From NCBI GenBank assembly GCA_028285465.1, contig JANQPD010000051.1, forward strand, positions 1-64,000: a stretch of DNA of 64,000 nt, in the 5' to 3' direction. This document shows positions 497 to 50,814 of this stretch, one piece after another. The notes under the pieces are model-generated. The model ran no database searches. It was not told where the DNA came from and saw only the letters and a list, made by a program, of their open reading frames with translations. The DNA comes from Owenweeksia sp. Lineage in GTDB: Bacteria > Bacteroidota > Bacteroidia > Flavobacteriales > Schleiferiaceae. The first letter of the stretch is position 1, and each line of letters starts with the position of its first letter. The translations under genes were made by a program, and so were the position numbers.

Positions 497-1915
497 CTAT
501 TGTTCCCACCAACCTTTGCTGTTGATGTTATCCCCGCCCAAACGGCTAGCCGCTTTGCTGTAGTTTGCATTGTTGGTAGCCTGCTCCGATTCGGGGTAGA
601 GATAGCGCACCGGGTAGCGGTCTTCATTCAGGTTGTCCGGCCCGGGTTCCAGGGCAGGGATACCGGTACGCCTGATGTTAAACCAGGCTTCATGCCCCAC
701 ATTGATCAGGCTGAGCCATTTCTGGGTCAGGATCTTTTCCAGGTTATCGCTCCCATTTAGCGCTATTTCCGGGCGGGTAAAGTAATCGCCCGGCAGGCTT
801 ACGTTATAATATGCAAAACTGGCTTCGATAGCGGCCTGGTAGTATGCTTCCACGCTTCCTGCTATAATGCCTCTTTGCGCGGCCTCGGCCAGTGCGAATT
901 GCAGTTCGGCATACTGCATAAACTGCGCGTCTACTCCATCCGGGACATCTCTGAAAATACTCCCGAAAAGCGATACCGTATCCAGGTCAATGCCTCTATT
1001 GCCAATGGTTTCACGGCTAAGCCCGTTCGGCAGACTGCCAAAGCCTCCCTGGCTATTGGGTTTATACAGAACGTTGATGCGTGGGTCGTTCCAAAGCGTG
1101 AGGATCGAATCCACGGTGCGGGTCATGCGGTGCTCCTGGTACAAGCCCAGGCTTGCAATGCTCATGGGAAACTGGTTTGGTGCCGAGGCCAGGTAGGGCA
1201 ACACTGCATTATCCAGGTTCGACTGCATCAACTGGTTTTCGTTTACCAGGTCCTGTAACGCACTGCTTACGTCCATACGCTTGCTGATGCGCAATAAATA
1301 ACGTACCCGCAGGGAATTGGCAAAGCGGACCCACTTCTGCAGGTCGTTGCCAAACAGCACGTCCCCGTTAACGGAGCTATTGGTATTTTGCAAAATGCCT
1401 ACGGCTTTTTCCAATACGGCCAAAATACCGGTTTGCGGATCGGTATAAATATCCTCCTGCCGGTCGTAAGCCGGGGTGAAGTTGCCTTTGCCGGCTTGCA
1501 AAGCTTCAGAATACGGAACATCGCCCCACATATCCGTCAACTGTGAAAATATGTGACACCGCATGATATCGCCCACAGCCACATAAGCCTCATTGGAACC
1601 TTCCAGGCGCTTCATGGATTCTACATCATTCAGCAAAGTATAGAGTGTGTTCCAATAGCTGCTGTTCGACCCCATCTCGTAGCGGTCGATCCGTTCAAAC
1701 TCTACACTTGCTGCAAACTGCACAAGGTAATTGGCCAGGCGAAACCCCTGCTCGTAGGCGTTCCTGTCGGCCGCCACAGAAATAACATTGGTCAGTAAAA
1801 AAGGAGGGGTGATCTCCTCGGGAGCATTGGGGTTCTTGTTTATCTCGTCAAAATCTTTGGTACACCCCAAAACCAAAAGGCCGAGTATTGCACTGCTGAT
1901 TATTATTCTTTTCAT
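497..1915 (-). CDS. SusD/RagB-family outer-membrane lipoprotein
   Basis: 472 aa. A short signal peptide ends in a lipobox with Cys18 (LLVLGC), so it should be a surface-anchored lipoprotein. The N-terminal FDEINKNPNAPEEITPPFLL and the overall length fit the SusD-like family that binds ligand and caps a SusC channel. It starts 10 bp after the SusC-type gene and is the last gene of the ten-gene operon that begins at 12648. The neighbours contain no glycoside hydrolase, so the ligand is more likely a small molecule such as a nucleoside derivative than a glycan; that is inference. Start: ATG directly at the signal peptide. Confidence 0.92.
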   Translation of the reverse strand: MKRIIISSAILGLLVLGCTKDFDEINKNPNAPEEITPPFLLTNVISVAADRNAYEQGFRLANYLVQFAASVEFERIDRYEMGSNSSYWNTLYTLLNDVESMKRLEGSNEAYVAVGDIMRCHIFSQLTDMWGDVPYSEALQAGKGNFTPAYDRQEDIYTDPQTGILAVLEKAVGILQNTNSSVNGDVLFGNDLQKWVRFANSLRVRYLLRISKRMDVSSALQDLVNENQLMQSNLDNAVLPYLASAPNQFPMSIASLGLYQEHRMTRTVDSILTLWNDPRINVLYKPNSQGGFGSLPNGLSRETIGNRGIDLDTVSLFGSIFRDVPDGVDAQFMQYAELQFALAEAAQRGIIAGSVEAYYQAAIEASFAYYNVSLPGDYFTRPEIALNGSDNLEKILTQKWLSLINVGHEAWFNIRRTGIPALEPGPDNLNEDRYPVRYLYPESEQATNNANYSKAASRLGGDNINSKGWWEQ

Positions 1916-1925
1916 GGGAATGTCT

Positions 1926-4900
1926 TTAAAATTGTGTTTTCAGGCTAAAGCCATAGCTGCGTGTGGAAGGGTAGCTCATGTCTTCTACTCCATAGGTATA
2001 ATTGGTTTCCTGCATGGCGTTGAGTTCCGGATCAAAATGCGGGTTCTCGGTAAACAACAAAAGGTTGCTGCCTACAAAGCCGAACTTTACTTCCTGAAAT
2101 CCGGCTGCTTTGGCCCACGCTTCAGGTAAAGTATAATACAGGCTTAGCTGGCGCAGTTTGATGTATGACGCATCATACAAGGCACTGGCCTCGTTTCCCC
2201 GGTCGTAAAAGTTATTGTAAAACTGGCTGGCTGAAACTACGGTGGTATTGGGTACGTATTCGGGGTTTTCCGGGGTGCCGATGTTCATTACCCCGTCTCC
2301 AACTATGCCCCCCTCGCGGCCTTGCAGTGTTTCTTCCAATACACCCGAGGTACTGCCCAGGGCTTTAGTGCGCGATACAATGGTTCCTCCATAGCGCCAA
2401 TCGAAGAGAATGCCCAGGCTGATGTTTTTATACGAAAACTCGTTGTTAAAGCCCATTAAAAAATCGGGGTTGTAGTTACCGAGTAAACGCAGGGTTCCAT
2501 CCTGTACAGGCAAGCCATTGGAACCATAAAGGATCTGTCCGTCAATCTCTACAAATCCGCTCCCATACATATCGCCTACCCTGCCCCCCTCACGGGCTAT
2601 GTAAAAAACAGTATTGGAACCTCCGGAGCCACCAAATATATTGGCCTGGCCGGTTACATACTGGTCTACCCCCTGTGGTAGTTTGGTTACTACACTTCTG
2701 AAGGTGGAAAAATTTACCGAAGCCAGCCACTGAAAACGCTCTCCTTTAACAATTTTTCCGCTGAGCATGGCCTCAAAACCCCGCGTACGTACTTCCCCAC
2801 CATTTTCAATGATGTTGCTAAAACCGGTGGCGTAGGAAATGGGCCTTCCTATGATCTGGTTGATGCTGGTGTTCTGGTAAACGGAAGCATCAAATTGCAG
2901 ACGATCCTTCAGCAACCAAAACTCAAGGCCTGCTTCATAGGCGTTCAAACGCTCCGGCTTAAGGTTTGCATTCGCCAGGATGGATTCATTGGTGAGGCGA
3001 AAGGAAGACCCATATGTAGTGTTGAACCGGAAGGTATTGATAAGCTGGTAAGGGTCGGTGTCGTTGCCTACACTTGCTGCATTGGCGCGCAGTTTCAGGT
3101 AGGTAATGAATTCCGGCAGATCTATATGATTCGAGAGTACGTAACCTGCACCCAGGGAGTAGTAGGCAAAGGAGTTATTATCGGCCGGGAGTGTACTGCT
3201 CCAGTCATTCCGCAACGTAAGGTCGAGGTATACAATGTTGCGGTATGCTATATTTCCTAAGGCATACACGCTGTTTATCCTCCTTTTGTAAAATTCGCTG
3301 GTACCGGTAAGCGGGGCGCGTGCGTTGGAAAGGCTATAAATATTGGGCACGGCTAATTGATCGGCCTCTGCAAACGTATAGCTGATCTCCTGGTCAAAGC
3401 GGTTTGCACCTATCGAAACATCGTAGGTCCAGGCGGCATTGAGCCGGTCACGGTACGTCAACAATACATCGGTATTGATCTCCCGGAAACGAACGTTGTC
3501 TTCCCGGTAGCCTCCGAACACCTTACGGTTGGTGCTGATGGCCCTTCTGAACTCCCGGGCATCATCCCATATATCCGCCCCGCTACGCAAACGAAAGCTC
3601 AACTTCTCTGTAAGGTCAACGGTTATCGCCCCATTCCCTAATATGCGGTTTTTATTGAAGCTGTTGGTATTCTCAAAAAGGGTGAGGTAGGGATTGGTGA
3701 GCCATAAGTAATTAAAGTCAAAATGCTGTACCCCTTGCTGACCTGCCTGCCAGTAATCCCGTAAGGCAGCTATATCCATCTGGCGACCGGTCCAGTTGAA
3801 GCCGTACATCACGTTTTCATACCCATAGCCCAGGTTGGGGCGGTTTTCGCTGCGCGAATTGATGTAATTGGCAAAAAGGTCTACCCTAACCCGGCTGCCC
3901 ACCTGCTGGTCGAGGCTAAAGGAAAGGCCATCCCGGTTCAGGTCTGTATTGGGCAGGATGCCCTGGTTACGCAAATTGCTGTACGACAAACGGATGCCCG
4001 TGCTTCCATTGTATGAGGTAATAGCAATGTTGTTTTGAGAGGTGAGCCCGGTTTGAAAAAAATTGCGCACGTTATCGGGCCGTGAAACAAAGGGCGTAGG
4101 CGTAATGGGATTTAGGGTGCCATCGGGATTTGTACGGGCCACTACATCTCCCCCGCGTACCGGGTCACCGTTTACGTCAAAAGAAGGCCCGTTAAACTGG
4201 GGCGCCAGGTAGCCCTGGTCCAGCGGCACACCGAAACTCGCCAGCCCTCCATCGGCAATACCCCCGCCTATGCCGTCTTCAAAAGCATATTGCGGCACTC
4301 CCTGGGCATCCAGTGAACCGCTGCCGTATTCATTTTGATACTGCGGGAGGGTAAGCAGGGTTTCAAACGTAAGGATGTTGCTTGTGCTTACGCCAAAGCC
4401 TTTCTTGCGTTGCCCTCGTTTGGTAGTGATCAAAACCACCCCGTTGGCCGCACGGGAACCATACAGGGCTGCTGCTCCGGGGCCTTTTAACACGGTAATC
4501 CCGGCCATATCATCGGGGCTTAGTTCGGAAGCACCGTTCCCATAATCCACCTCTTGCATGGCCCCGTTGTTGGTGAGGTTGCTGCTGATCTGCTGATTGC
4601 GGATCGGAACACCGTCTACCACAAAAAGGGGTTGGTTGTTGCCACTCAGGGAGTTCTCTCCCCGGATAATGATGCGTGAAGAAGAGCCGGTACCCGATGA
4701 ACCATTGGTAACCTGTACCCCGGCTACTTGGCCAGAAAGGCTGTTGACCACGTTGGTGAGCGGCACATCGGTAAGCTGCCGGGCGTCTACTTCGGCAATA
4801 CTGGCTGAAAGGGACTGCCTGTCTTTGCGGATGCCCAGGGCCGTTACCACCGCGTCATCCAGTTGCTCGCTTTTTTGAGACAATAAAACCGATGCGTTTA

Positions 4901-5156
4901 AAAGACTGGCCCGGATCGTTACTTCACTGTATCCCAATGCTGTGATCTTAAGCATGGCCGTGGGAAGTACGGTAATGCTGAAGCTGCCGTCCGCTGCCGA
5001 CACGCTGAAATTTTGCGTGCCTACTTCCACTATGGATGTCCCAGGAATGGGTGCTTTATCCAAAGCATCGAGGACCTTGCTGCTGTAGGTATTTTTTTGC
5101 GCAAGTCCCACCAGGATGCTGCATTGGAGCAACACCACCAAATATATTTTTTTCAT
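1926..5156 (-). CDS. SusC/RagA-family TonB-dependent outer-membrane transporter
   Basis: 1076 aa. Order: signal peptide (residues 1-19), CarboxypepD_reg-like beta-sandwich (about 22-95), TonB-box-like VVTALGI (about 104-110), plug with the typical RGENSLSGNNQPLFVVDGV segment, then a long beta-barrel ending in aromatic F (FSLKTQF). It should import the SusD-bound ligand into the periplasm using TonB energy. It lies 55 bp after the DUF2064 gene and 10 bp before the SusD gene, on the same strand as the ABC importer further up. This gives a complete outer-plus-inner-membrane uptake route in one operon. The length is normal for the family. Confidence 0.95.
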   Translation of the reverse strand: MKKIYLVVLLQCSILVGLAQKNTYSSKVLDALDKAPIPGTSIVEVGTQNFSVSAADGSFSITVLPTAMLKITALGYSEVTIRASLLNASVLLSQKSEQLDDAVVTALGIRKDRQSLSASIAEVDARQLTDVPLTNVVNSLSGQVAGVQVTNGSSGTGSSSRIIIRGENSLSGNNQPLFVVDGVPIRNQQISSNLTNNGAMQEVDYGNGASELSPDDMAGITVLKGPGAAALYGSRAANGVVLITTKRGQRKKGFGVSTSNILTFETLLTLPQYQNEYGSGSLDAQGVPQYAFEDGIGGGIADGGLASFGVPLDQGYLAPQFNGPSFDVNGDPVRGGDVVARTNPDGTLNPITPTPFVSRPDNVRNFFQTGLTSQNNIAITSYNGSTGIRLSYSNLRNQGILPNTDLNRDGLSFSLDQQVGSRVRVDLFANYINSRSENRPNLGYGYENVMYGFNWTGRQMDIAALRDYWQAGQQGVQHFDFNYLWLTNPYLTLFENTNSFNKNRILGNGAITVDLTEKLSFRLRSGADIWDDAREFRRAISTNRKVFGGYREDNVRFREINTDVLLTYRDRLNAAWTYDVSIGANRFDQEISYTFAEADQLAVPNIYSLSNARAPLTGTSEFYKRRINSVYALGNIAYRNIVYLDLTLRNDWSSTLPADNNSFAYYSLGAGYVLSNHIDLPEFITYLKLRANAASVGNDTDPYQLINTFRFNTTYGSSFRLTNESILANANLKPERLNAYEAGLEFWLLKDRLQFDASVYQNTSINQIIGRPISYATGFSNIIENGGEVRTRGFEAMLSGKIVKGERFQWLASVNFSTFRSVVTKLPQGVDQYVTGQANIFGGSGGSNTVFYIAREGGRVGDMYGSGFVEIDGQILYGSNGLPVQDGTLRLLGNYNPDFLMGFNNEFSYKNISLGILFDWRYGGTIVSRTKALGSTSGVLEETLQGREGGIVGDGVMNIGTPENPEYVPNTTVVSASQFYNNFYDRGNEASALYDASYIKLRQLSLYYTLPEAWAKAAGFQEVKFGFVGSNLLLFTENPHFDPELNAMQETNYTYGVEDMSYPSTRSYGFSLKTQF

Positions 5157-5211
5157 AGAATGCGTTAAATGTTATACTGCAACCCGGGTTGAACCGGGTA
5201 AATGGATGTTG

Positions 5212-5937
5212 TTATGCTTGCAGTATATGCGGGGGGCCGCGCAAGGGAGCAGGGCCTCTGTACTCAGGATCTTCAGCAAAAGAAGCCTTTCCTAAGAAGG
5301 GTACTCCCTGAAGTTTGCTGAGCCTTCGTTGTAGGGCCTTGCTCCATAGCTTTTTGCTCTTTCGCAAAAAGGCAAAGAGATCCGATTTATGGTCAATATC
5401 GGATAAGGTATCGAGTACTTCCAGCGCAAAGCCGAATGCTCCTGTTGTGTTCTGCAGGGTTTCGAACAAATGGGCCTGTCGCCAGGGCAGGTGTATTAAA
5501 TCAACTTGCTGAAACTGTTTGCGGTTGAAACCCAGCAGGTAAACGCCTCCGTCCCTGGCCGGGCCCAGCACGAAAGTCTCCTTAGCCAATGCCTTTGCAG
5601 CGCTCTGCATTTTAGCAACCGTGAGCTGCGGGCTGTCGTTTCCGATGATCAACAGGCGTTCGTACCCCCTGGCAAATACATCTCCTGCGGCATTGTGCAG
5701 CCGTTCTCCAAAATTTTTACCGCGCTGTTGCTGCTCATCCATCCAAAAAACGGGCAGATCGAGTTTTTCTACTTCTGAGCGGGTATGTGCGATCAATGCC
5801 TGGCACACGGCTTTGTTCTCTGCATTCCGGCCATGGCCCAATAAGGCCTTTTGCCGCGCTTCGAGTGAAGCAGAACGCGAAAACACCAGAAGGGCCGTAC
5901 GCCCCTGTACATGCTTATGCTGTGTATGGTTTGTAAT
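5212..5937 (-). CDS. DUF2064 / TIGR04282-type GT-A fold protein, probable ATT start
   Basis: The first core strand (TALLVFSRS) resembles the N-terminus of DUF2064 proteins, which have a nucleotidyltransferase-like GT-A fold. LLIIGNDSPQL and GPARDGGVYLLGF match its later conserved blocks (IGSDSP and GxxxDGGYxLxG types). The first usable GTG (5886) would cut inside strand one. Upstream in frame there is no ATG, GTG or TTG, but an ATT (5935-5937) sits 6 nt after AGGAA, so that start is chosen (241 aa). Function in this family is poorly defined; members occur beside radical SAM proteins in putative glycosyl-transfer clusters. Here it sits 70 bp after a radical SAM gene and 55 bp before the SusC gene. 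Confidence 0.75.
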   Translation of the reverse strand: MTNHTQHKHVQGRTALLVFSRSASLEARQKALLGHGRNAENKAVCQALIAHTRSEVEKLDLPVFWMDEQQQRGKNFGERLHNAAGDVFARGYERLLIIGNDSPQLTVAKMQSAAKALAKETFVLGPARDGGVYLLGFNRKQFQQVDLIHLPWRQAHLFETLQNTTGAFGFALEVLDTLSDIDHKSDLFAFLRKSKKLWSKALQRRLSKLQGVPFLGKASFAEDPEYRGPAPLRGPPHILQA

Positions 5938-6007
5938 CAGAAGTTCCTGCGTTTGGTTTGTTAAAGTGTTGTCTATATCCGGAAGTCAACGGCTGTGCTG
6001 CCCCCGT

Positions 6008-7021
6008 TTAATTTGAGAGGTCGCGGTGTATGCTGATCTTGTTCTCCATTTTCCGGGGGATAAACTCCGGGTGCTTTGCTTTATACGCCTTTGCTTCCTG
6101 TTTTTTCATGTCGAAGTACTTGGTAAAAAACTCATCACACCACAGGCATACGTTCTCCAATTCCTGCGAGCGTGCCCGTGCAAACTCTTCGGTAATGCCA
6201 ATGCTCTCCCCCATTTTCCAGGCGTCTCCTTTGTTTAGCATCTGCATAACTTTTGACTTTTCCATACGCCTCATTACTTCAAACACCTTTTCTACCCGCG
6301 CATCTCCCATAGGATCTTTGGTACCCGGGCAGCATGGGTTTATGGCCCACAATTGTATGGAGACCTCCTGTGTAAGATCCGTTTCTTCATTCCCCAGAAA
6401 AGCAATGGCTCCGGAGGGAATGGCGCAAAAGTTATGCAGCCCGTCCCGTTTCCAGATGTTATGCTTCATAGCACGGCCCCGCGCCCAATTTCCGCCCAGC
6501 CACATGTCTTCCGTGGCCCCGAAAAAACCATAGGTGGGGTGCGCCCGCTTATCGTTTTCCAGTTCTGTGCGGGTGAGTTTTGGTTGCCCTTCAATGTACT
6601 CTATGCCGTGGGCCTCGAACATGGTGGCCAGCTCTTCTTTGCGCTCGCCCTGCTTTTTGTGGTATCGGTCGATGCTGGCTATTGAAAAACGATCAACCCC
6701 TTTTTCCAGCAGGATCTTTAGTATTTTGGGGGTAAGCAGGTCTCCGTTGAACTGCAAAGCGATGTACAACTGCTTGCCGTATTTCGCATTGAGCTTATCT
6801 AATATCTTATACAGCAATTTCCTTTCCGCCAGGGGCTCTCCTCCGCTCAGGCTAATGCGGTCGAGTTTATCGGGCATATTGTCAATCACCGCCATACACT
6901 CCGCCTCACTCATCCGCGCTCCATAGGGGCCACTATCGTTGTAGCAATGGTCGCAGTGGTCATTGCACAGCTGTGTGAACACCCAATAGATCCGTTCAAT
7001 GTGGGTAAAGTTGTTTTTCAT
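6008..7021 (-). CDS. Radical SAM protein with extra C-terminal cysteines
   Basis: 337 aa. The CNDHCDHC motif (C19, C23, C26) binds the catalytic 4Fe-4S cluster and SLSGGEP is the SAM-binding GGEP motif. Further cysteines (HNFCAIP, NPCCPG, NVCLWC near the C-terminus) could ligate an auxiliary cluster as in SPASM or Twitch proteins. The substrate is unknown. It lies between a sugar-kinase-like gene (26 bp upstream) and the DUF2064 gene in the salvage-like operon. By analogy with the queuosine salvage pair QueK (nucleoside hydrolase) and QueL (radical SAM lyase) described in Clostridioides, it might act on a base released by the hydrolase; this is inference from neighbourhood only. Confidence 0.88.
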   Translation of the reverse strand: MKNNFTHIERIYWVFTQLCNDHCDHCYNDSGPYGARMSEAECMAVIDNMPDKLDRISLSGGEPLAERKLLYKILDKLNAKYGKQLYIALQFNGDLLTPKILKILLEKGVDRFSIASIDRYHKKQGERKEELATMFEAHGIEYIEGQPKLTRTELENDKRAHPTYGFFGATEDMWLGGNWARGRAMKHNIWKRDGLHNFCAIPSGAIAFLGNEETDLTQEVSIQLWAINPCCPGTKDPMGDARVEKVFEVMRRMEKSKVMQMLNKGDAWKMGESIGITEEFARARSQELENVCLWCDEFFTKYFDMKKQEAKAYKAKHPEFIPRKMENKISIHRDLSN

Positions 7022-7047
7022 GGCTTTTTATGCAGCGGCAAATTGCC

Positions 7048-8037
7048 TTATTCGCGTATAAGTATTTGTCTGGCTTCAGACAAGAGCTGTATTCTTTTTT
7101 CCAAACCTATTTCCAGCGGAAGTTGTGCCAGGCCCAATATCCTACGTATGATCTCTCCGCTCATAAAAGCCTGGCAAAGGGCCTCGTTCAACGGAGCTTT
7201 TGCCCGGTAGGTGGCCCGTGCAAGATCAATAAGTTCGGCCGGTTGATCTGCCATTTTCAAATGCGCCAGGCATACCCCTACTTCAAACTCTGCCGGCCCG
7301 AAAAAGCAAAACTCCGGGTCAATCACCTTAAGCCCCTGACTGGTCTGTAACCAGCTTCCCGGAAAATAATCCCCGTGCAACAGCTTTTCTCCATCGGCCA
7401 GATAGCGCTCCCCTAATGTACGGGCTTTTGCTTTGAGCGGTTCATCCTGTTTATACGCTGAGGCTACTTCCTGCAAACCGGGGAGTACATCGTCCAGGTC
7501 CAGACCATTCTCTTCAAGGTAGGGGTATACATACATATGTTCATGGTTGAGTGCGCGCATCTCCCGGTTGGTAATGGGTTTTGCTACCTCATCTACTGAA
7601 AAAGCGTTATGCAGGGCTGCGGCAAATTCCATCAAGTCAACAAGGTGTGCCTTCTCAATCTGCTGCCCGCTTTTATACAAGTTGGTGAAGTCTGCTCCTT
7701 CTCCCAGGTCTTCCAGCAACAAAACACAATGGACCTTATCCACAGCCAGGAGTTCCGGCATTTTTTGGGCCAGTTGCGTTTTCCCCGCAATCAAGCCGTA
7801 AAATTCGGCTTCGCGCAAAGCCCTCTCCCTCGGGGCTGACACCTGCGGGTACTTCTCCACATACGCCCGGCTTTGCTTCACAATAAAACTGCGCTGGTTT
7901 GTAACAAGCCTCAGGGTGAAGTTCATATTGCCCTCTCCCGGTTTTTCCGCCCGCTCCAGGCTTTCTCCCGGTTTCAGCCACACCTGCGCCTGTAAATACG
8001 CTTCCAGCTCTTTTAAATCGGTTGTGAGTTTTTGCAT
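7048..8037 (-). CDS. APH-fold sugar kinase, similar to methylthioribose kinase
   Basis: 329 aa with an aminoglycoside-phosphotransferase fold. The catalytic block LLHGDYFPGSW followed by VIDPEFCFFGP matches the HGDLHTGS...DPEFAFYGP pattern of methylthioribose kinase (MtnK) rather than antibiotic kinases. MNFTLRL and FIVKQSRAYVEKYP give the nucleotide-binding loop and the Lys strand. MtnK enzymes phosphorylate the anomeric hydroxyl of a ribose-like sugar. Placed 39 bp after a nucleoside hydrolase gene, it would be suited to phosphorylate the free sugar that enzyme releases. No mtnA-type isomerase or other methionine-salvage gene is present nearby, so the substrate may differ from methylthioribose. 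Confidence 0.85.
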   Translation of the reverse strand: MQKLTTDLKELEAYLQAQVWLKPGESLERAEKPGEGNMNFTLRLVTNQRSFIVKQSRAYVEKYPQVSAPRERALREAEFYGLIAGKTQLAQKMPELLAVDKVHCVLLLEDLGEGADFTNLYKSGQQIEKAHLVDLMEFAAALHNAFSVDEVAKPITNREMRALNHEHMYVYPYLEENGLDLDDVLPGLQEVASAYKQDEPLKAKARTLGERYLADGEKLLHGDYFPGSWLQTSQGLKVIDPEFCFFGPAEFEVGVCLAHLKMADQPAELIDLARATYRAKAPLNEALCQAFMSGEIIRRILGLAQLPLEIGLEKRIQLLSEARQILIRE

Positions 8038-8076
8038 TTTCTTTTGTTCATACGTTTTGTTTTCAGTCCTTCCGGT

Positions 8077-8997
8077 CTATTTCAACAAACTATTCATCAG
8101 TTTTTCGTGGTAGCCTTGCACTACATCGTAGCAATACTTTACCGGGTAGCCTGCGGTGGCCCGGTCGCACAATAAAAATTGCTTGTAAACATCTCCCGTG
8201 TTGCCGTCCATATCGTCTTTCAGGTGTGCTTCCAGGCGGGCCTGTAAAGCTTCACTTATGATATCCTGCGGGTGCAATATGTAGTGGCTGGCCAATACGT
8301 CAAAAGGGTTAAAACCACGCTCATCCATCGCCACCCACTGTTGCAACCAGGGCCGAGAATGCCCGGCCAGCCAGCGGCAGGCTTCGTCTCCCTGCTCCAG
8401 GGCATCCAGGTCTTCGGCCTGCAGCCACACTTTATTCGATATTTCAAAGGGGCAGAATACCAGGGGGACCTGGTATTGAAAAAGCACCCTGAAGGCATCG
8501 TTGTCCAGGTCAAAATTGAGGTCGGGGGCAGAAGCCTTCCGGGCCCCGATCGTAAAATGATCGCTTGCTTTTCTCCTGCCTGCAACGAGTACTACTTCCT
8601 CTATCTGCGCTACCAAATGTGGATACAGCAACACCAGCAGACCTATATTGGTAGCCGGGCCAATGGCCATAATGGTGAGTTTTTGCTTTTCCAGCGCGTT
8701 GGCCAGGGCCTCCACCGCTTCATTGGTTTCTATATGGGCCAGCACCATAGGCTGTTCGGCACCCTTGTAAACCGAAATGTTGCCCCCGGCATAGCTGTGG
8801 CTCATGTGCTGGCACAAATGATAGGCATTTTCCAGGGTGGTGTTGCCAAATACCGCACTCATGCCCACCACTTCCGTTTCTTTTGCTTTAAGCAGTTGCA
8901 AAACGGCATACCCATCGTCCACATCGCAATAGTCTTCCCTACCCTGGCGTTTCATGCCCACGGAAAGGTCCGTATCGATCCAAACCTGTTTTTTCAT
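8077..8997 (-). CDS. Nucleoside hydrolase-like protein with altered Ca-loop spacing
   Basis: 306 aa. IDTDL near the N-terminus and DVDDGYAVLQLL about 16 residues later correspond to the calcium-binding DxDxGxDD loop of inosine-uridine nucleoside hydrolases. Here the loop is split by a short insertion (SVGMKRQGREDYC). Further family blocks: VVGMSAVFGN, TIMAIGPATNIG, and a C-terminal Asp-rich region (KDDMDGNTGD). Such enzymes cleave the N-glycosidic bond of ribonucleosides. The changed loop marks a divergent subgroup that may use an unusual nucleoside. It lies 44 bp after the ABC ATPase gene and 39 bp before the kinase gene, in the same operon. Confidence 0.85.
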   Translation of the reverse strand: MKKQVWIDTDLSVGMKRQGREDYCDVDDGYAVLQLLKAKETEVVGMSAVFGNTTLENAYHLCQHMSHSYAGGNISVYKGAEQPMVLAHIETNEAVEALANALEKQKLTIMAIGPATNIGLLVLLYPHLVAQIEEVVLVAGRRKASDHFTIGARKASAPDLNFDLDNDAFRVLFQYQVPLVFCPFEISNKVWLQAEDLDALEQGDEACRWLAGHSRPWLQQWVAMDERGFNPFDVLASHYILHPQDIISEALQARLEAHLKDDMDGNTGDVYKQFLLCDRATAGYPVKYCYDVVQGYHEKLMNSLLK

Positions 8998-9041
8998 TTT
9001 CTTATTTCTTTAAAGTGCATTTTATATCCGTTGCGTTTACT

Positions 9042-9761
9042 TTATTTCAGGTCTTTCCAAAAGCCGATCTCGCTTTGTACCCCCGTTTCCGGGTCTTCAA
9101 TAAAGGCTTGTTTGCTTTTGTATACTTTCAAAACCCCGCTTTTCATAAAGGCGATCTCATCGCCCATTAAAATGGCTTCCTTTAAGTCGTGGGTTACAAA
9201 GAGCGAGGTGATGCTGAATGCACCCGCGATTTTCTTGAACAGCTGCTGCATTCTCTGTCGTGTGCCTGCATCCAGGCTCCCGAAGGGCTCATCCAAAAGC
9301 AATAAGGCCGGGTTGTTGATGATAGCACGGCCAAAGGACACCCTTTGCCGCTGCCCACCCGAAAGCTGGTGGGGCATTTTGCTTTGCTGCCCCTGTAGTT
9401 CCAGGCTTTCTACCATGGTTTCTACTTTTTGCCGTACCTCCTTTGCCGGGTGTTTTTTAAGGCGCAGGCCAAAGGCGATGTTCTCAAATACATTGAGGTG
9501 GGGAAACAACAGGTCTTCCTGGTAGAGGTAAATGATGTTGCGCTGCTCGGGTTTTTTGTGGCTGATCGATGCGCCATCGAGCCGAATGTCTCCCCCATCA
9601 GGCGTTACCAGCCCGCCTAACATTTTGAGCATCGTGGTTTTCCCACATCCCGACTGCCCTAAAATGCTCAGCGTTTTATGCCGCTCCAAAGAAAAAGTCA
9701 GGTCGGTTACCACCTGTTCTTGTCCAAAGCTTTTACGGATCTGCTTTACTTCTAAGAACAT
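9042..9761 (-). CDS. ABC importer ATPase (YnjD-like)
   Basis: 239 aa. Walker A GQSGCGKTT, Q-loop in YLYQEDLLFPH, signature LSGGQRQRVSFGRA, Walker B LLLLDEPFGSLD and switch His in FVTHD are all intact. It powers the two permeases encoded just upstream (overlap at base 9761) and pairs with the YnjB-type binding protein at the head of the operon. The length is short, without the C-terminal regulatory domain found in many Fe(III) or polyamine ATPases. Confidence 0.93.
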   Translation of the reverse strand: MFLEVKQIRKSFGQEQVVTDLTFSLERHKTLSILGQSGCGKTTMLKMLGGLVTPDGGDIRLDGASISHKKPEQRNIIYLYQEDLLFPHLNVFENIAFGLRLKKHPAKEVRQKVETMVESLELQGQQSKMPHQLSGGQRQRVSFGRAIINNPALLLLDEPFGSLDAGTRQRMQQLFKKIAGAFSITSLFVTHDLKEAILMGDEIAFMKSGVLKVYKSKQAFIEDPETGVQSEIGFWKDLK

Positions 9762-10534
9762 TACACCAATTTGTTAAACACATAGCGTTTGTTGATGTAC
9801 AACAAAGCTACGGGCGGGAGTATAAGGAGCACACAACTAAGGGCTCCGTAATAAAAATTTGCCTCTTTGATAAACAGGAATACTTTAATCGTAAGCGTTT
9901 GTACTTTGCCTACCCCAATAATAGACGTTAATCCGTATTCAAACCAACTGATGAGGAACGTTTGAAAAAAACAGACCAGCAACATGCCCCTGGCCATGGG
10001 CAAAAGCACCCGCTGAAAGGTGTGCCAAAGATTGCCCCCGAGCGTGGCTACCAGCTTTTCCAGTTGCTGCGTTTTGCTTCCCCAAAAACTGCCAAAAAAG
10101 ATAAGGGCATAGGGAAAGGCTACCATAAACTGGGCAACGACCACCCCACCGGATTTACCGAAAAGGCCAAGCTTTAAGAAGAAAAAGCTCAGGCAGGCGG
10201 CAAAGACTACCGGGGCCAGGATATACGGAAAGTAGCTGAGCAAGGTAAGCAGGTGTTGTTTGGGATGGTAGTATACCAACCGGCTGATAAAAAAACCGGA
10301 AAAGGTAGCTGCGGTAGCTACCGAAACGGAGATGAGCACAGAAAGCAGGAAGCTCTGCCACAGGCTTGTTTCGGCACTGAGCACGGCATACCAGTTGCGC
10401 AAGCCGATGTAAGCCGGCCACACATCGGGAAAACGCCAGTCGCCGGCTAAAGAAAGCAGACCGAGGTAAGCAAAAGGAAAAAGCACCAGCAGCACCAGCA
10501 GGCTCAGTATGAAGGGTTTTACACTAAAACGCAT
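9761..10534 (-). CDS. ABC importer permease subunit 2
   Basis: 257 aa with about six hydrophobic segments. The segment around LEKLVATLGGNLWHTFQRVLLPMARGML carries the EAA-type loop that contacts the ATPase, as in BPD_transp_1 permeases. It overlaps the preceding permease gene by 11 bp and the ATPase gene by one base, so translation is probably coupled. In E. coli the related YnjC is one double-length permease; here the two halves are separate proteins. Confidence 0.9.
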   Translation of the reverse strand: MRFSVKPFILSLLVLLVLFPFAYLGLLSLAGDWRFPDVWPAYIGLRNWYAVLSAETSLWQSFLLSVLISVSVATAATFSGFFISRLVYYHPKQHLLTLLSYFPYILAPVVFAACLSFFFLKLGLFGKSGGVVVAQFMVAFPYALIFFGSFWGSKTQQLEKLVATLGGNLWHTFQRVLLPMARGMLLVCFFQTFLISWFEYGLTSIIGVGKVQTLTIKVFLFIKEANFYYGALSCVLLILPPVALLYINKRYVFNKLV

Positions 10535-11378
10535 CGGCCGTCTTTTTTTTGCGGTAAAACAGGAGTACCGCAGCTCCCGATACGATGAAGGTGTACAGTA
10601 CCGCTACGGCATAACCCTCGGGGATCTTAGCGAGGTCAAACTGGCGCATCTCGCGTATAATGAGCACGGACAACATTTGCGGAGACTGCTGTCCCAGGAT
10701 CAGCGGCACTTCATAGGCGCCCAGGATAAAGATGAAATAAAGTACGATCAGCGTGCGGGTTTTTGTAAGCAAAATGGGAATGCTTACCCTCCACCTCACC
10801 TGCCTGGGGGTTGCGCCAAGCGAAACGGCCAGGGTTTTCAACTCGCCCAGGCGTTCGTTCTTATACACGTTCATAAAGAGCAGCACGAAAAAGGGAGTTA
10901 CCAGGGAAATGAAGGTAAGCAGTATGCCTACGGCCCAAGGGTCATTTACCAGATCGGGAAACTGGCGTGCCTTATCAATGCCACCGAGTGCGTAGGTGAT
11001 GCGGGCAAAAAACCCCGACTGCGCAAGCAACTGGAAGGTAAAAAAGGCGGCCACCACTCCGGGAATGGCCAACGGGAGGTACAGGACAAAAGAAAGGGCT
11101 TTCTTTTCAAAGTCGCGCCGGTAGCTGAGCACCAGCCAAAGGGCCAAACCTACGGAAACAGCTACGCTCACGGCTGCTATAGCCGCCGAATACCCCAACG
11201 ATTTGAAAAACTCCCCGGAGCGGAAAACCGCTGCCCAAAAGGCGGTGGTATAACTGGTGTTCAGTACCCCCACTGCACCAAAACTATACAGCAAGGCGTA
11301 TACGAAAGCAGCGGCAAAAGGCAGCACGCCTATGGCCAGGAAAAACAAAATGCCAATGTGGGGCGACTTAGTTCTCAA
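10524..11378 (-). CDS. ABC importer permease subunit 1
   Basis: 284 aa with six predicted membrane helices. The EAA-like loop LGELKTLAVSLGATPRQVRWRVSIPILL is clear (A-x-x-L-G-A-x3-Q). It forms the channel with permease 2. It overlaps the binding-protein gene by 11 bp upstream and permease 2 by 11 bp downstream. The C-terminus is rich in Lys (FYRKKKTADAF) and cytoplasmic. Together with the neighbours this forms a complete importer. Confidence 0.92.
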   Translation of the reverse strand: MRTKSPHIGILFFLAIGVLPFAAAFVYALLYSFGAVGVLNTSYTTAFWAAVFRSGEFFKSLGYSAAIAAVSVAVSVGLALWLVLSYRRDFEKKALSFVLYLPLAIPGVVAAFFTFQLLAQSGFFARITYALGGIDKARQFPDLVNDPWAVGILLTFISLVTPFFVLLFMNVYKNERLGELKTLAVSLGATPRQVRWRVSIPILLTKTRTLIVLYFIFILGAYEVPLILGQQSPQMLSVLIIREMRQFDLAKIPEGYAVAVLYTFIVSGAAVLLFYRKKKTADAF

Positions 11379-12648
11379 TTACTTCTGTCCTGAAATCTTC
11401 ATAAATACGGATCATGTATTCGGGAGCGGGCTCCTGTATGGCATAGGGCGCCAGGGCGCTTACCTCCGGACCGTATTTGCGGCCCGGGGCTGCGGCAAAT
11501 TTCTGCTGCCATTCGGCCGGCAGCTTCTCCATGGAAAGAACGGTGTTTGCGTTCATCCGGTTCACATCTGCCTTTTCCAGCTGGGCTTCGGGCGACATCA
11601 GAAAATTAATGACCAGCATAGCCCCGGCCTTGTTCGGGGCATTGGCCGTTATCCCCAGGTAGTTGGCGTTGCGCACGGTTCCGTTTTCCCAGGCGTAGCC
11701 CCGGGTGGTTTCGGGGAAAAGGCCCTGGTGCACCTTCTCCTCTATCCCTCCCTCGCTGAAGCCATAGCTGAGGAGGAGCTCTCCGCTGGCAAACAACTGG
11801 TCCATTTTGGAATGCTCGGTAGGAAAGGTTTCGCCTTCCTTCCAAAAGTATTTTTTGTTGCGGTTGATATACGCCCATAGCCGGGCCGACAGGCGTGCAT
11901 ATTTTTCTTCATCGAAGGGCCCGTCCAGGGAGGTAGGCGCTCCTCCTAGTTCCGCCAGAAAACACTTGAGCAGGGTCATCCCCGTAAAGTCGTTGGAAAT
12001 GGTGAACGTGCCGGGATACGCTTTAATGAAGTGCTCCAGTTCATCGAGCTTTTTAGGGGGTGCGGGCACTTGGGCAGAATCGTACACCAGGGCAAATTGG
12101 CTGATGCCCCAGGGCGCTTCCATATAGTTTACAGGCTGCTGGAAGTCTGTGCTGATGTAGGTATCCTCAAAATCTACGTAAGCCGCATGGGGAAGCTTTT
12201 CCACAAAGGGCCCGTATAAGCCGTTTATCTTCCGCAACTGGAAAAAGGTTTCCCCGTTGATCCATACCATATCCACCTGCCCCTGCGTTATGCCGGCCTG
12301 TTTTTCGCCCATCACCAATTGTACGATCTCGGGCCCCTGCCCTCCGCTGATCTTCAGATCAATGTCGTACAGTTCTTTTACGCGAGGCACTACGTAGTTA
12401 TTGATATAGGCATTGATGATCGGGCTTCCCTGCCACATCATAAACTGTACGGTGGTGCCCTGCCCCGCTTTTTCGATCTCTGTCCAATCCCGTTCGCCTA
12501 AAGTGTCAGGCTCTGTTGTGGAGGTACAGCCCACTACGAGGGCCAGCAGGCAAAGCAAAAAAGCACAACCGCTCGTTTTGCGGAGGCCAAAGAACAGCCG
12601 CTGTATGTCTGCTAAAAAGTGTAAGGAAAGCCTAGTGTGTATATGCAT
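11368..12648 (-). CDS. YnjB-family ABC transporter substrate-binding lipoprotein
   Basis: 426 aa. The signal region is unusually long, ending in lipobox CLLALVVGC (Cys41). The mature part shows the YnjB pattern: TTVQFMMWQGSPIINAYINN, QVDMVWINGETFFQL and YMEAPWGISQFALVYDS. YnjB proteins are class II periplasmic binding proteins whose ligand is not established. This is the first gene of the minus-strand operon. A pair of direct repeats lies 10-47 bp before the start. The long N-terminal stretch before the hydrophobic core suggests a later start is possible, but no better ATG is present. Confidence 0.9.
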   Translation of the reverse strand: MHIHTRLSLHFLADIQRLFFGLRKTSGCAFLLCLLALVVGCTSTTEPDTLGERDWTEIEKAGQGTTVQFMMWQGSPIINAYINNYVVPRVKELYDIDLKISGGQGPEIVQLVMGEKQAGITQGQVDMVWINGETFFQLRKINGLYGPFVEKLPHAAYVDFEDTYISTDFQQPVNYMEAPWGISQFALVYDSAQVPAPPKKLDELEHFIKAYPGTFTISNDFTGMTLLKCFLAELGGAPTSLDGPFDEEKYARLSARLWAYINRNKKYFWKEGETFPTEHSKMDQLFASGELLLSYGFSEGGIEEKVHQGLFPETTRGYAWENGTVRNANYLGITANAPNKAGAMLVINFLMSPEAQLEKADVNRMNANTVLSMEKLPAEWQQKFAAAPGRKYGPEVSALAPYAIQEPAPEYMIRIYEDFRTEVIEN

Positions 12649-17480: not shown

Positions 17481-17879
17481 ATGAACCTTAAAATCAGAAA
17501 ATACAATCCAGCTCTTGATTACGAGAACCTAATGAAGCTGGTTCAATCTGAAGGTGAAGAATGGAAGGAGTATTTAAAACCCATCTATCGAAAAGCCCTT
17601 AAAAACTCTATTACATATGTTGCATTGATTGGGGAGGAACTGTGTGGATATTCTCGTTCATTAAGTGATTCTGGATTATTCGTTTGGGTAATTGATTTGC
17701 TCGTAAATAAAAACCGGAGAGGACTTTCGATTGGAAAAAAACTCATGGAGTGTATCTTAACTGATTTCCCAGATATTGATGTATTCGTTATGTCTGATGT
17801 TGATCCCTATTATGATAAGCTTGGCTATGAAAAAGAAGGTTCAATCTTTAGAGTAATACGAACACACAACAAAACCTAA
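17481..17879 (+). CDS. GNAT-family N-acetyltransferase
   Basis: 132 aa. ATG 17481 is preferred over TTG 17463, which lies inside the attC-like end. GNAT fold: VIDLLVNKNRRGLSIGKKLM contains the acetyl-CoA pyrophosphate loop (R-x-x-G-L-S-I-G), and VFVMSDVDPYYDKLGYEKEG is the terminal strand-helix with the common Tyr. The substrate is unknown. It starts 10 bp after one site and its stop lies in the left end of the next. Confidence 0.85.
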   Translation: MNLKIRKYNPALDYENLMKLVQSEGEEWKEYLKPIYRKALKNSITYVALIGEELCGYSRSLSDSGLFVWVIDLLVNKNRRGLSIGKKLMECILTDFPDIDVFVMSDVDPYYDKLGYEKEGSIFRVIRTHNKT

Positions 17880-49266: not shown

Positions 49267-50814
49267 CTATGCGCTTACAGAAGCTTTTTCCCTTTGCGCT
49301 AGTTTTTCCAATGACCGTTCTATATCCGCCTTTATGGTTTTATAGGTGCCGTACATCTGCACCATCATCAAGCCATAAAGAAGGGCTTTATCCAGGTACT
49401 TGCGGTTGTACAAAAGCGTCCAGAAAAACAAGCGCCAAAAATAGCGGCGCTGAGGCGATTTGACACCTATCCGGTAAAGGCTGGACAGCGCAATGCCCGT
49501 ATCCCGCCAGGAAAAATCTGTTGGAATGGGCAAGTTGTTCTTTGGAAATTGGTAGGTCTTGAAAAAGCGCTTAATGCGTTTCAGCGCATGCGCTGGTTTA
49601 TAGGTAGCATCAATTACCCGCAGGTAACCTTCCAGCAGGGCACGTTCGCCCATAGCTGGAATGATGTTGGTATCCCCTTCGGCAAAGGCAAAAGCTTTAC
49701 TCAACCGCCCCTCTTTCTCCATACGTTCATGTAACTCGGTACCCGGGGGCGCCTTTAGAATGTTTACGATCGGCAAGGGTATGCCGCTTTCTCTCAAAAA
49801 GCGGATCTGTCGATCGAAGGTATGCTCGTCATCCGTATCAAAGCCTACGATAAAACCACCCCAAATCACAAAACCTTTGCTGTGTAACAACAAAATGTTG
49901 TCCATGATGTTACGCCTCAGGTTTTGATTCTTGCGCGACACTTTTAAACTTGCTTCATCCGGTGTTTCAATACCGATGAAAATATGCCGGAAACCAGCGT
50001 CAATCAGCAGCTGCATCAACTCCTCGTCATCAGCGAGGTTTATGGTAAGTTGGGTAGCAAAAAACACACTGGGTTTGGTGCGCTTGCGCCATTCAATGAG
50101 TGCGGGCAAAAGCTCCTTTTTTACCAGTTTCTTGTTGCCGATCAAATTGTCGTCCGCAAACAGCACCAGCGATCCGGCATCCGCCTGTGCACAAATGGCA
50201 TCCAGCTCTTTTAAGATCTGCGTGGTGGTCTTCACACGGGGCCTACGTCCGAACAAGGCCGTCACATCGCAAAAATCGCACATATAAGGGCAGCCCCTGG
50301 AGTATTGAATGATGGAATAGATATAGTCTTTCATATCCACCAATTCAAAAGCAGGCACAGGCGATTCTTCAACATTGGCAAATGCACTGCTGCTATAAAT
50401 GCGCTGCACATTACCTGCTTCCCAATCTTTTAAAAACATGGGTAAGGTAAGTTCAGCTTCATTGAGCACAAAGTGATCTACCTCCGGAAAGCGCTCATGC
50501 TCATGCGTAAAGAGTGTGCCACCTCCCACTACCGTAATACCGGCTTGTTTAGCTATAGACAAAACCTCCCGTACGGAGTACTCCTGCACATTCATGGCCG
50601 AAAGAAACAGCAGGTCTCCCCATTGCAGGTCATCTGTAGTCAGCGCACGGACATTGAGGTCTACTACCCGTTTGTTCCAATCGCCCGGTAGCATAGCCGC
50701 TACGGTAAGCAAGCCCAAGGGCGGGTAAGAACCTTTTTTACCCACCATCTTAAGCGCGTGGCGCATAGCATAAATGGTATCGGGCATTTCGGGATATACC
50801 AGCAGTACGTTCAT
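49267..50814 (-). CDS. B12-binding-domain radical SAM protein
   Basis: 515 aa. An N-terminal B12-binding-like Rossmann domain (MNVLLVYPEMP, then LLFLSAMN and GGGTLFTHEHERF) precedes the radical SAM core with CPYMCDFC and ADDNLIGNKKLVKKELLPAL. The C-terminal DUF4070-like region (residues about 360-500) matches the layout of class B radical SAM methyltransferase relatives such as HpnJ and HpnR. The B12 domain may have lost the His ligand, which is common. The substrate is unknown; methylation of a lipid is one option. It is divergent from the SGNH gene. Confidence 0.88.
   Translation of the reverse strand: MNVLLVYPEMPDTIYAMRHALKMVGKKGSYPPLGLLTVAAMLPGDWNKRVVDLNVRALTTDDLQWGDLLFLSAMNVQEYSVREVLSIAKQAGITVVGGGTLFTHEHERFPEVDHFVLNEAELTLPMFLKDWEAGNVQRIYSSSAFANVEESPVPAFELVDMKDYIYSIIQYSRGCPYMCDFCDVTALFGRRPRVKTTTQILKELDAICAQADAGSLVLFADDNLIGNKKLVKKELLPALIEWRKRTKPSVFFATQLTINLADDEELMQLLIDAGFRHIFIGIETPDEASLKVSRKNQNLRRNIMDNILLLHSKGFVIWGGFIVGFDTDDEHTFDRQIRFLRESGIPLPIVNILKAPPGTELHERMEKEGRLSKAFAFAEGDTNIIPAMGERALLEGYLRVIDATYKPAHALKRIKRFFKTYQFPKNNLPIPTDFSWRDTGIALSSLYRIGVKSPQRRYFWRLFFWTLLYNRKYLDKALLYGLMMVQMYGTYKTIKADIERSLEKLAQREKASVSA

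Follow-up and report, generated by a model that had tools for sequence, protein, structure and literature searches.

A DUF2064-like gene in an Owenweeksia riboside-import operon as a putative translational-arrest leader with a GT-A pseudoenzyme domain

RAPP and RGPP near the C-terminus of a protein are established ribosome-arrest motifs, RGPP being the most robust (PMC12992588). ApdA, ApdP, ApcA and SecM, secretory or membrane proteins that monitor Sec/YidC, carry such a C-terminal core (RAPP, RGPP or RAGP) behind an N-terminal context that is not conserved (PMC12992588, PMC10951233). CruR (DUF2946) of Bordetella pertussis is a copper-responsive upstream open reading frame (ORF) with a RAPP tail that controls the next gene, which encodes a TonB receptor; 45 residues separate its copper site from RAPP, a distance that varies by no more than one or two residues (PMC9426467). 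The CruR protein is small and exported, senses copper by a CXXC motif and acts through Rho. Here we describe a DUF2064-like gene (5212–5940, start codon uncertain) in a ten-gene minus-strand operon of Owenweeksia sp., found in the first 64,000 nucleotides of contig JANQPD010000051.1 (assembly GCA_028285465.1), a stretch called the window below. From sequence analysis we propose that this gene is an arrest leader with a GT-A pseudoenzyme sensor, set in an operon for riboside import; we give the model as a whole a probability of about 0.6, and regard its first element, that the gene is an arrest leader, as likely in its own right.

The DUF2064 frame ends with the nine residues RGPPHILQA, in which RGPP stands five residues before the stop, and a scan of all ORFs in the window found this tail nowhere else. 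The RGPP codons (CGC GGC CCC CCG, 5230–5241) form the predicted arrest site, given the known activity of this motif (PMC12992588). Related loci were gathered by means of the radical S-adenosylmethionine (SAM) protein, the kinase and the DUF2064 protein of the operon, and gene order was tallied over 44 leader loci; a contig scan with the radical SAM protein as its only query yielded 6 loci. R[AG]PP or a close variant occupies the C-terminus in 42 of the 44 leaders under a broad definition and in 26 under a strict one, mostly 2–5 residues before the stop (RAPP in 15, RGPP in 11, KGSP in 9 and KAPP in 5, with HAPP and RGSP also seen). Among the other ORFs of the same loci the motif occurs in 0 of 532 (strict) or 1 of 532 (broad). 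An invariant Asp precedes the motif by 53.2 ± 1.8 residues, and pairwise identity is 33% in the domain, 13% in the linker and 66% in the motif; the low linker identity implies deep divergence despite the kinship of the loci. In seven close pairs, codon changes within the motif were 13 synonymous versus 1 non-synonymous, compared with 51 versus 86 in the linker (p=6e-5, a Fisher value that overstates the number of independent events, since the loci are related), which indicates that the motif is selected as protein.

The leader gene lies 20–170 bp upstream of a gene for a TonB receptor, SusC, a solute-binding protein or TIGR04169 in nearly all loci. As in CruR, the gene that comes directly after the window leader encodes a TonB-dependent transporter, and the motif stands a few residues before the stop at constant spacing. 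It differs from CruR in having a cytosolic GT-A domain, no metal site, often RGPP within its family, a possible pairing against the ribosome-binding site and another pathway; with a DUF2064 fold and no CXXC, it lacks the combination of CXXC copper site and RAPP that marks CruR/DUF2946. Likewise, its C-terminal core and unconserved N-terminal context resemble those of ApdA, ApdP, ApcA and SecM, whereas its folded domain comes from an enzyme family. The leader would thus be an unusual form of the RAPP class, in which a cytosolic pseudoenzyme domain serves as the part outside the tunnel.

The leader protein begins directly with β-1 of its GT-A domain and has neither a signal peptide nor a transmembrane segment. 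In the window, the DUF2064 frame offers no ATG, GTG or TTG ahead of its first conserved strand. A start at GTG 5886, the earliest canonical codon, would give a 121-bp gap and cut into β-1, so translation probably begins at a non-AUG codon, CTG 5940 or ATT 5937; three leaders, that of the window included, have no ATG, GTG or TTG around the expected start. AlphaFold models residues 1–182 with high confidence and the tail as disordered; we divide the protein into a GT-A pseudoenzyme domain, a linker of ~40 residues and RGPPHILQA. Among solved structures, a DUF2064-type putative transferase (3cgx) and CofC-like transferases are closest in fold, and the protein scores 102 bits against TIGR04282, the DUF2064-type arsenosugar-biosynthesis glycosyltransferase family, under the cut-off of 134.

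The first-pass annotation had taken this protein for a GT-A-fold enzyme, and it might be an ordinary pathway enzyme, a glycosyl- or nucleotidyltransferase that takes the kinase product as substrate, with the C-terminal motif as a docking or stability tag that has no part in arrest. The fold itself, and the presence of canonical relatives in arsenosugar-type clusters, speak for such an enzyme. We compared the 44 leaders with 20 canonical DUF2064 proteins (residue numbers are alignment columns). The canonical proteins keep the Gly, Lys, Thr, Arg and Leu of the nucleoside triphosphate (NTP) loop GxxKTRL with few or no exceptions. The leaders have lost this loop: its old Gly is Glu or Asp in 42 of 44, the Thr is Lys in 43 of 44, and the Lys and Arg show no conservation. 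The DGG motif lacks its Asp in 15 of 44. Use of NTP by the leader protein is therefore doubtful. D164, W220 and D250 stay invariant, so that a binding pocket may remain; the invariance of these pocket residues also speaks for an ordinary transferase. A profile (A2) separates DUF2064 proteins into two classes, with full-length matches (model positions 2–230) corresponding to the C-terminally extended one; canonical proteins end near model position 180–200, those inspected have no arrest tail, and their genes, where read, are mostly followed by a purine nucleoside phosphorylase gene. The window leader thus shares fold and family with TIGR04282 and differs in its sub-threshold score, missing loop, added linker and arrest tail. 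Loss of the loop and of the DGG Asp, identity of the C-terminal motif with an established arrest motif at constant spacing over an unconserved linker, and a gene position that is, almost without exception, directly ahead of an importer gene make an ordinary transferase unlikely; a regulatory arrest leader is the more likely assignment. A literature search on DUF2064 found nothing, and one on arrest leaders with enzyme domains found no paper.

How a stall at RGPP could act on the next gene is suggested by the messenger RNA. The segment TATACTGCA (5227–5219), within the codons right after RGPP, pairs perfectly in RNA folding with TGCAGTATA (5181–5173), ~16 nt upstream of the susC ATG. Across 30 loci, the mean number of pairs between post-motif codons and the leader of the next gene was 5.2, versus 2.9 with the intergenic sequence shuffled, and the real value was reached by 0 of 200 shuffles. 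On the proposed mechanism, the nascent product would consist of a cytosolic GT-A domain without the NTP loop, a tunnel-length linker and the C-terminal RGPP. While halted at RGPP, the ribosome would mask the codons that pair with the susC leader and so keep susC/D translation open; folding of the domain outside the tunnel, or its binding of a ligand or partner, would then exert a pull that releases the arrest, the hairpin would close and the importer would be turned down. Such a hairpin, with the importer kept on by the stall, is plausible but does not hold for all loci; those without pairing may be under Rho-type control like that of CruR. An Rfam scan of the window matched no riboswitch or other RNA family, and regulation of that type was rejected.

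What opens the stall is a separate matter. The arrest could be released by binding of a partner, for example an operon protein, or by plain co-translational folding, with no small molecule sensed. The tail, the spacing and the RNA data fit this alternative equally, and the RAPP leaders of Sec/YidC monitor machinery, not metabolites (PMC12992588). The leaders nonetheless have new conserved pocket residues (Glu or Asp at the old Gly, Lys at the old Thr, F139, W220 and D250), which suggest that ligand binding is retained, and we consider release by a partner or by folding rather unlikely, while sensing of a ligand in place of a partner comes slightly short of an even chance. Ligand-gated release by the leader would resemble the action of SecM or CruR but with a metabolite sensed.

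The operon served by the putative leader comprises ten co-directional ORFs in the ORF listing, with a solute-binding protein first and SusD last, and the ten genes and families named by the first-pass annotation are all present, with Pfam and NCBIfam in agreement at family level. The YnjB-type periplasmic solute-binding lipoprotein (11368–12648) belongs to NF008633/PRK11622, the family of YnjB (372 bits, cut-off 203 for NF008633). It is followed by two ABC permeases (10524–11378 and 9761–10534) and an ABC ATPase in the YnjD-type position (9042–9761), a set like E. coli YnjBCD, for which we know of no ligand; unlike the E. coli system, that of the window is tied to an outer-membrane TonB/SusCD step and to riboside enzymes. 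A sequence search for solved relatives of the binding protein found none, its fold search returned generic PotD/FutA/AfuA-type binders, which say nothing on the ligand, and a literature search on YnjB function found nothing. The nucleoside-hydrolase family protein (8077–8997) passes the IU_nuc_hydro gathering score (106.5 versus 34.2 bits) and has the DxD/DD calcium ligands; D8, D10, D27, D28 and D233 are invariant across 9 relatives. It lacks the leaving-group His, carries an insertion between the DxD and DD ligands and has NPFD at the HD position, where its PFD replaces the HD that we take to be typical of nucleoside hydrolases; the insertion and the NPFD suggest an unusual leaving group.

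The APH-fold kinase (7048–8037) is a relative of methylthioribose kinase: its sole NCBIfam match is MTRK TIGR01767, at 108 bits under the equivalog cut-off of 275, and it retains the MtnK-like motifs HGDxxxGS and IDPEF. The radical SAM protein (6008–7021) matched PF04055 and no NCBIfam model above cut-off. Its cysteines comprise CX3CX2C and the conserved C199, C230–C231 and C292xxC295, and NPCCPGT is invariant in its unnamed family. Identity with ArsS was rejected (TIGR04167, 21 bits in G000:C34, cut-off 300), as was any other named maturase, no NCBIfam family having passed. Directly behind the arrest tail lies the SusC/RagA-type TonB-dependent outer-membrane transporter (1926–5156; TIGR04056, 568 bits), followed by the SusD-like surface lipoprotein (497–1915; SusD-like_2). 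Elsewhere in the window, a Fic-like C-terminal fragment (HPFVDGNGRTARL) lies at the contig edge (95–430, plus strand), and the start of the translation of 49267–50814 on the minus strand (NVLLVYPEMPDTIYAMRHAL) resembles a B12-binding radical SAM protein.

The first-pass annotation had read these genes as one conserved ten-gene unit, with a catalytic DUF2064 protein, that scavenges a modified nucleoside or nucleoside cofactor such as queuosine. A nucleoside hydrolase and an MtnK-like kinase behind importers fit scavenging, as does the functional replacement of the pair by an MTAP-like phosphorylase and an MTRK-like kinase. The complete set, however, occurs only in the window and in L014 (G111), both of which combine two modules. 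The first, YnjBCD and the radical SAM gene behind an Oar-like TonB receptor, stands in L009–L013, L015, L028 and L030. The second, nucleoside hydrolase and MtnK-like kinase, occurs with YnjBCD and SusCD in L110, L114 and L120, with SusCD only in L042 and behind an Oar-like receptor in L043 and L044. A third, MTAP-like phosphorylase and MTRK-like kinase, accompanies YnjBCD in L098, L101, L102 and L109 and stands without it in L116–L119, and L099, L100, L105, L106 and L121–L123 carry SusCD with a sodium-symporter-like protein and a phosphoesterase. Common to all these loci is the DUF2064 gene directly before an importer gene. The radical SAM gene lacks the hydrolase/kinase pair in most loci, and the pair lacks the radical SAM gene in L042–L044, L110, L114 and L120, so these enzymes do not form a fixed set. 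In L016 and L017 a member of the radical SAM family has only a TonB receptor and no leader. This free separation, and leader neighbours that are ArsS, ArsM and TIGR04169 in place of Que genes, make the scavenging unit improbable; queuosine, thiamine and methionine or methylthioadenosine salvage were set aside as themes of the operon, with no supporting neighbours and no riboswitch match in the window. What endures of the earlier interpretation is an operon that joins import to the cleavage of a riboside and to the phosphorylation of its 5-substituted ribose, since either enzyme pair recurs behind YnjBCD and an importer.

The neighbours of the leaders point to a cargo. In several genomes the leader adjoins or directly precedes TIGR04169-ArsS-ArsM (directly ahead of TIGR04169-arsS in L104, L107 and L113), unlike in the window genome, which has import and cleavage genes instead. 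In L099 the neighbours score above curated cut-offs (ArsS TIGR04167, 443 bits; arsenosugar-type ArsM NF038099, 571; TIGR04169, 190), and ArsS of L107 reaches 445 bits against TIGR04167. ArsS was found in 12 of 35 leader-bearing genomes, within ~10 kb of the leader in 11 of the 12. None of the leader operons of these 12 genomes has a YnjBCD, hydrolase/kinase, MTAP-like or radical SAM module, compared with 20 of the 23 ArsS-less genomes (p=5e-7, with no correction for phylogeny), and a single genus (g19) includes both states. G133 has its nucleoside hydrolase gene within the operon for the importer (L103) and its kinase gene next to those for TIGR04282, phosphorylase and TIGR04283 (L045), a placement that joins the import and TIGR04282 clusters functionally. 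In L045, L046 and L047 the MtnK-like kinase lies beside a glycohydrolase-like gene near a canonical TIGR04282 (an ADP-ribosylglycohydrolase in L045), which apparently stands in for the nucleoside hydrolase.

ArsS is the enzyme that adenosylates arsenic on the way to oxo-arsenosugars (reviewed in PMC12159101). We read the data to mean that ArsS genomes make a compound and that genomes like that of the window import the same compound or a relative. A 5'-substituted riboside would enter via SusCD and YnjBCD, the hydrolase would cleave it and the MtnK-like kinase would phosphorylate C1 of the freed 5-substituted ribose. The enzymology of the MtnK and MTAP families, from 5'-substituted adenosine to 5-substituted ribose 1-phosphate, is established, and by analogy hydrolase plus kinase, or the MTAP-like phosphorylase, would both lead to this product. 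The likeliest cargo, given ArsS near the leader and its absence from genomes with import and cleavage modules, would be an arsenosugar or a nucleoside precursor of the dimethylarsinoyl-adenosine type, although we hold a 5'-substituted riboside of arsenosugar type at somewhat less than even odds. Radical SAM enzymes release 5'-deoxyadenosine, and 5-substituted riboses are MtnK substrates; the hydrolase and kinase might therefore serve only to recover 5'-deoxyadenosine or methylthioadenosine that the cell itself produces, for instance through the radical SAM enzyme, the imported cargo being something else. The six loci in which the pair stands behind leader and importer with no radical SAM gene in the operon, and the hydrolase within the importer operon itself in L103, argue against such recycling, which we think unlikely.

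Several observations weigh against the arrest-leader model or parts of it. The first motif residue is Lys or His in 15 of the 44 loci, whereas the motif Arg was irreplaceable in B. subtilis and E. coli assays, and the arrest motif by itself is insufficient, a supporting N-terminal context being needed (PMC12992588). Nine leaders (L012, L043, L044, L096, L097, L099, L100, L105 and L122) have KGSP at the R[AG]PP position; because the Arg is thought irreplaceable, KGSP is possibly a lineage-specific arrest motif. L011 has no motif and L015 has RAPP solely in another frame. In L015 (G082; leader ending at 17567, minus strand) the frame stops early and RAPP with YLGITQAIS follows shortly downstream, displaced by a frameshift, a sequencing error or decay. 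Almost all known RAPP/RGPP leaders that precede TonB receptor genes are secretory, and the window leader has no signal peptide. RNA pairing is missing from about half of the loci and, for the window by itself, falls short of significance (P 0.125). As to the cargo, the link to arsenic comes from gene neighbourhood, and a family search of the window genome found neither ArsS nor an arsenosugar-type ArsM. The TIGR04282 name need not imply arsenic, because canonical TIGR04282 is far commoner than ArsS. The window genome has a canonical copy, with TIGR04282, TIGR04283 and purine nucleoside phosphorylase above cut-offs in L018 (G000:C28:23000-34000, 4473–6691, minus strand), and these late-step genes may have a role wider than arsenic.

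Only tentatively, then, do we suggest that a nascent glycosyltransferase paralogue binds an arsenosugar intermediate, opens an RGPP stall and so controls an importer or an arsS operon; if true, such a metabolite-sensing arrest leader would be the protein counterpart of a riboswitch. For annotation, the family is a warning that a DUF2064 protein labelled as a glycosyltransferase may in fact be a regulatory leader. An open question raised in PMC12992588 is whether RAPP arrest is released by force outside protein export as well, and what the source of that force would be. This family makes the question directly testable: its more than 40 loci combine a soluble folded domain, at near-constant tunnel-length spacing from the motif, with a defined target gene downstream. 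The proposed reading would also tie the orphan YnjBCD transporter, the MtnK-like kinase and the nucleoside hydrolase to arsenosugar-type chemistry, and some Bacteroidota may import what others make with ArsS.

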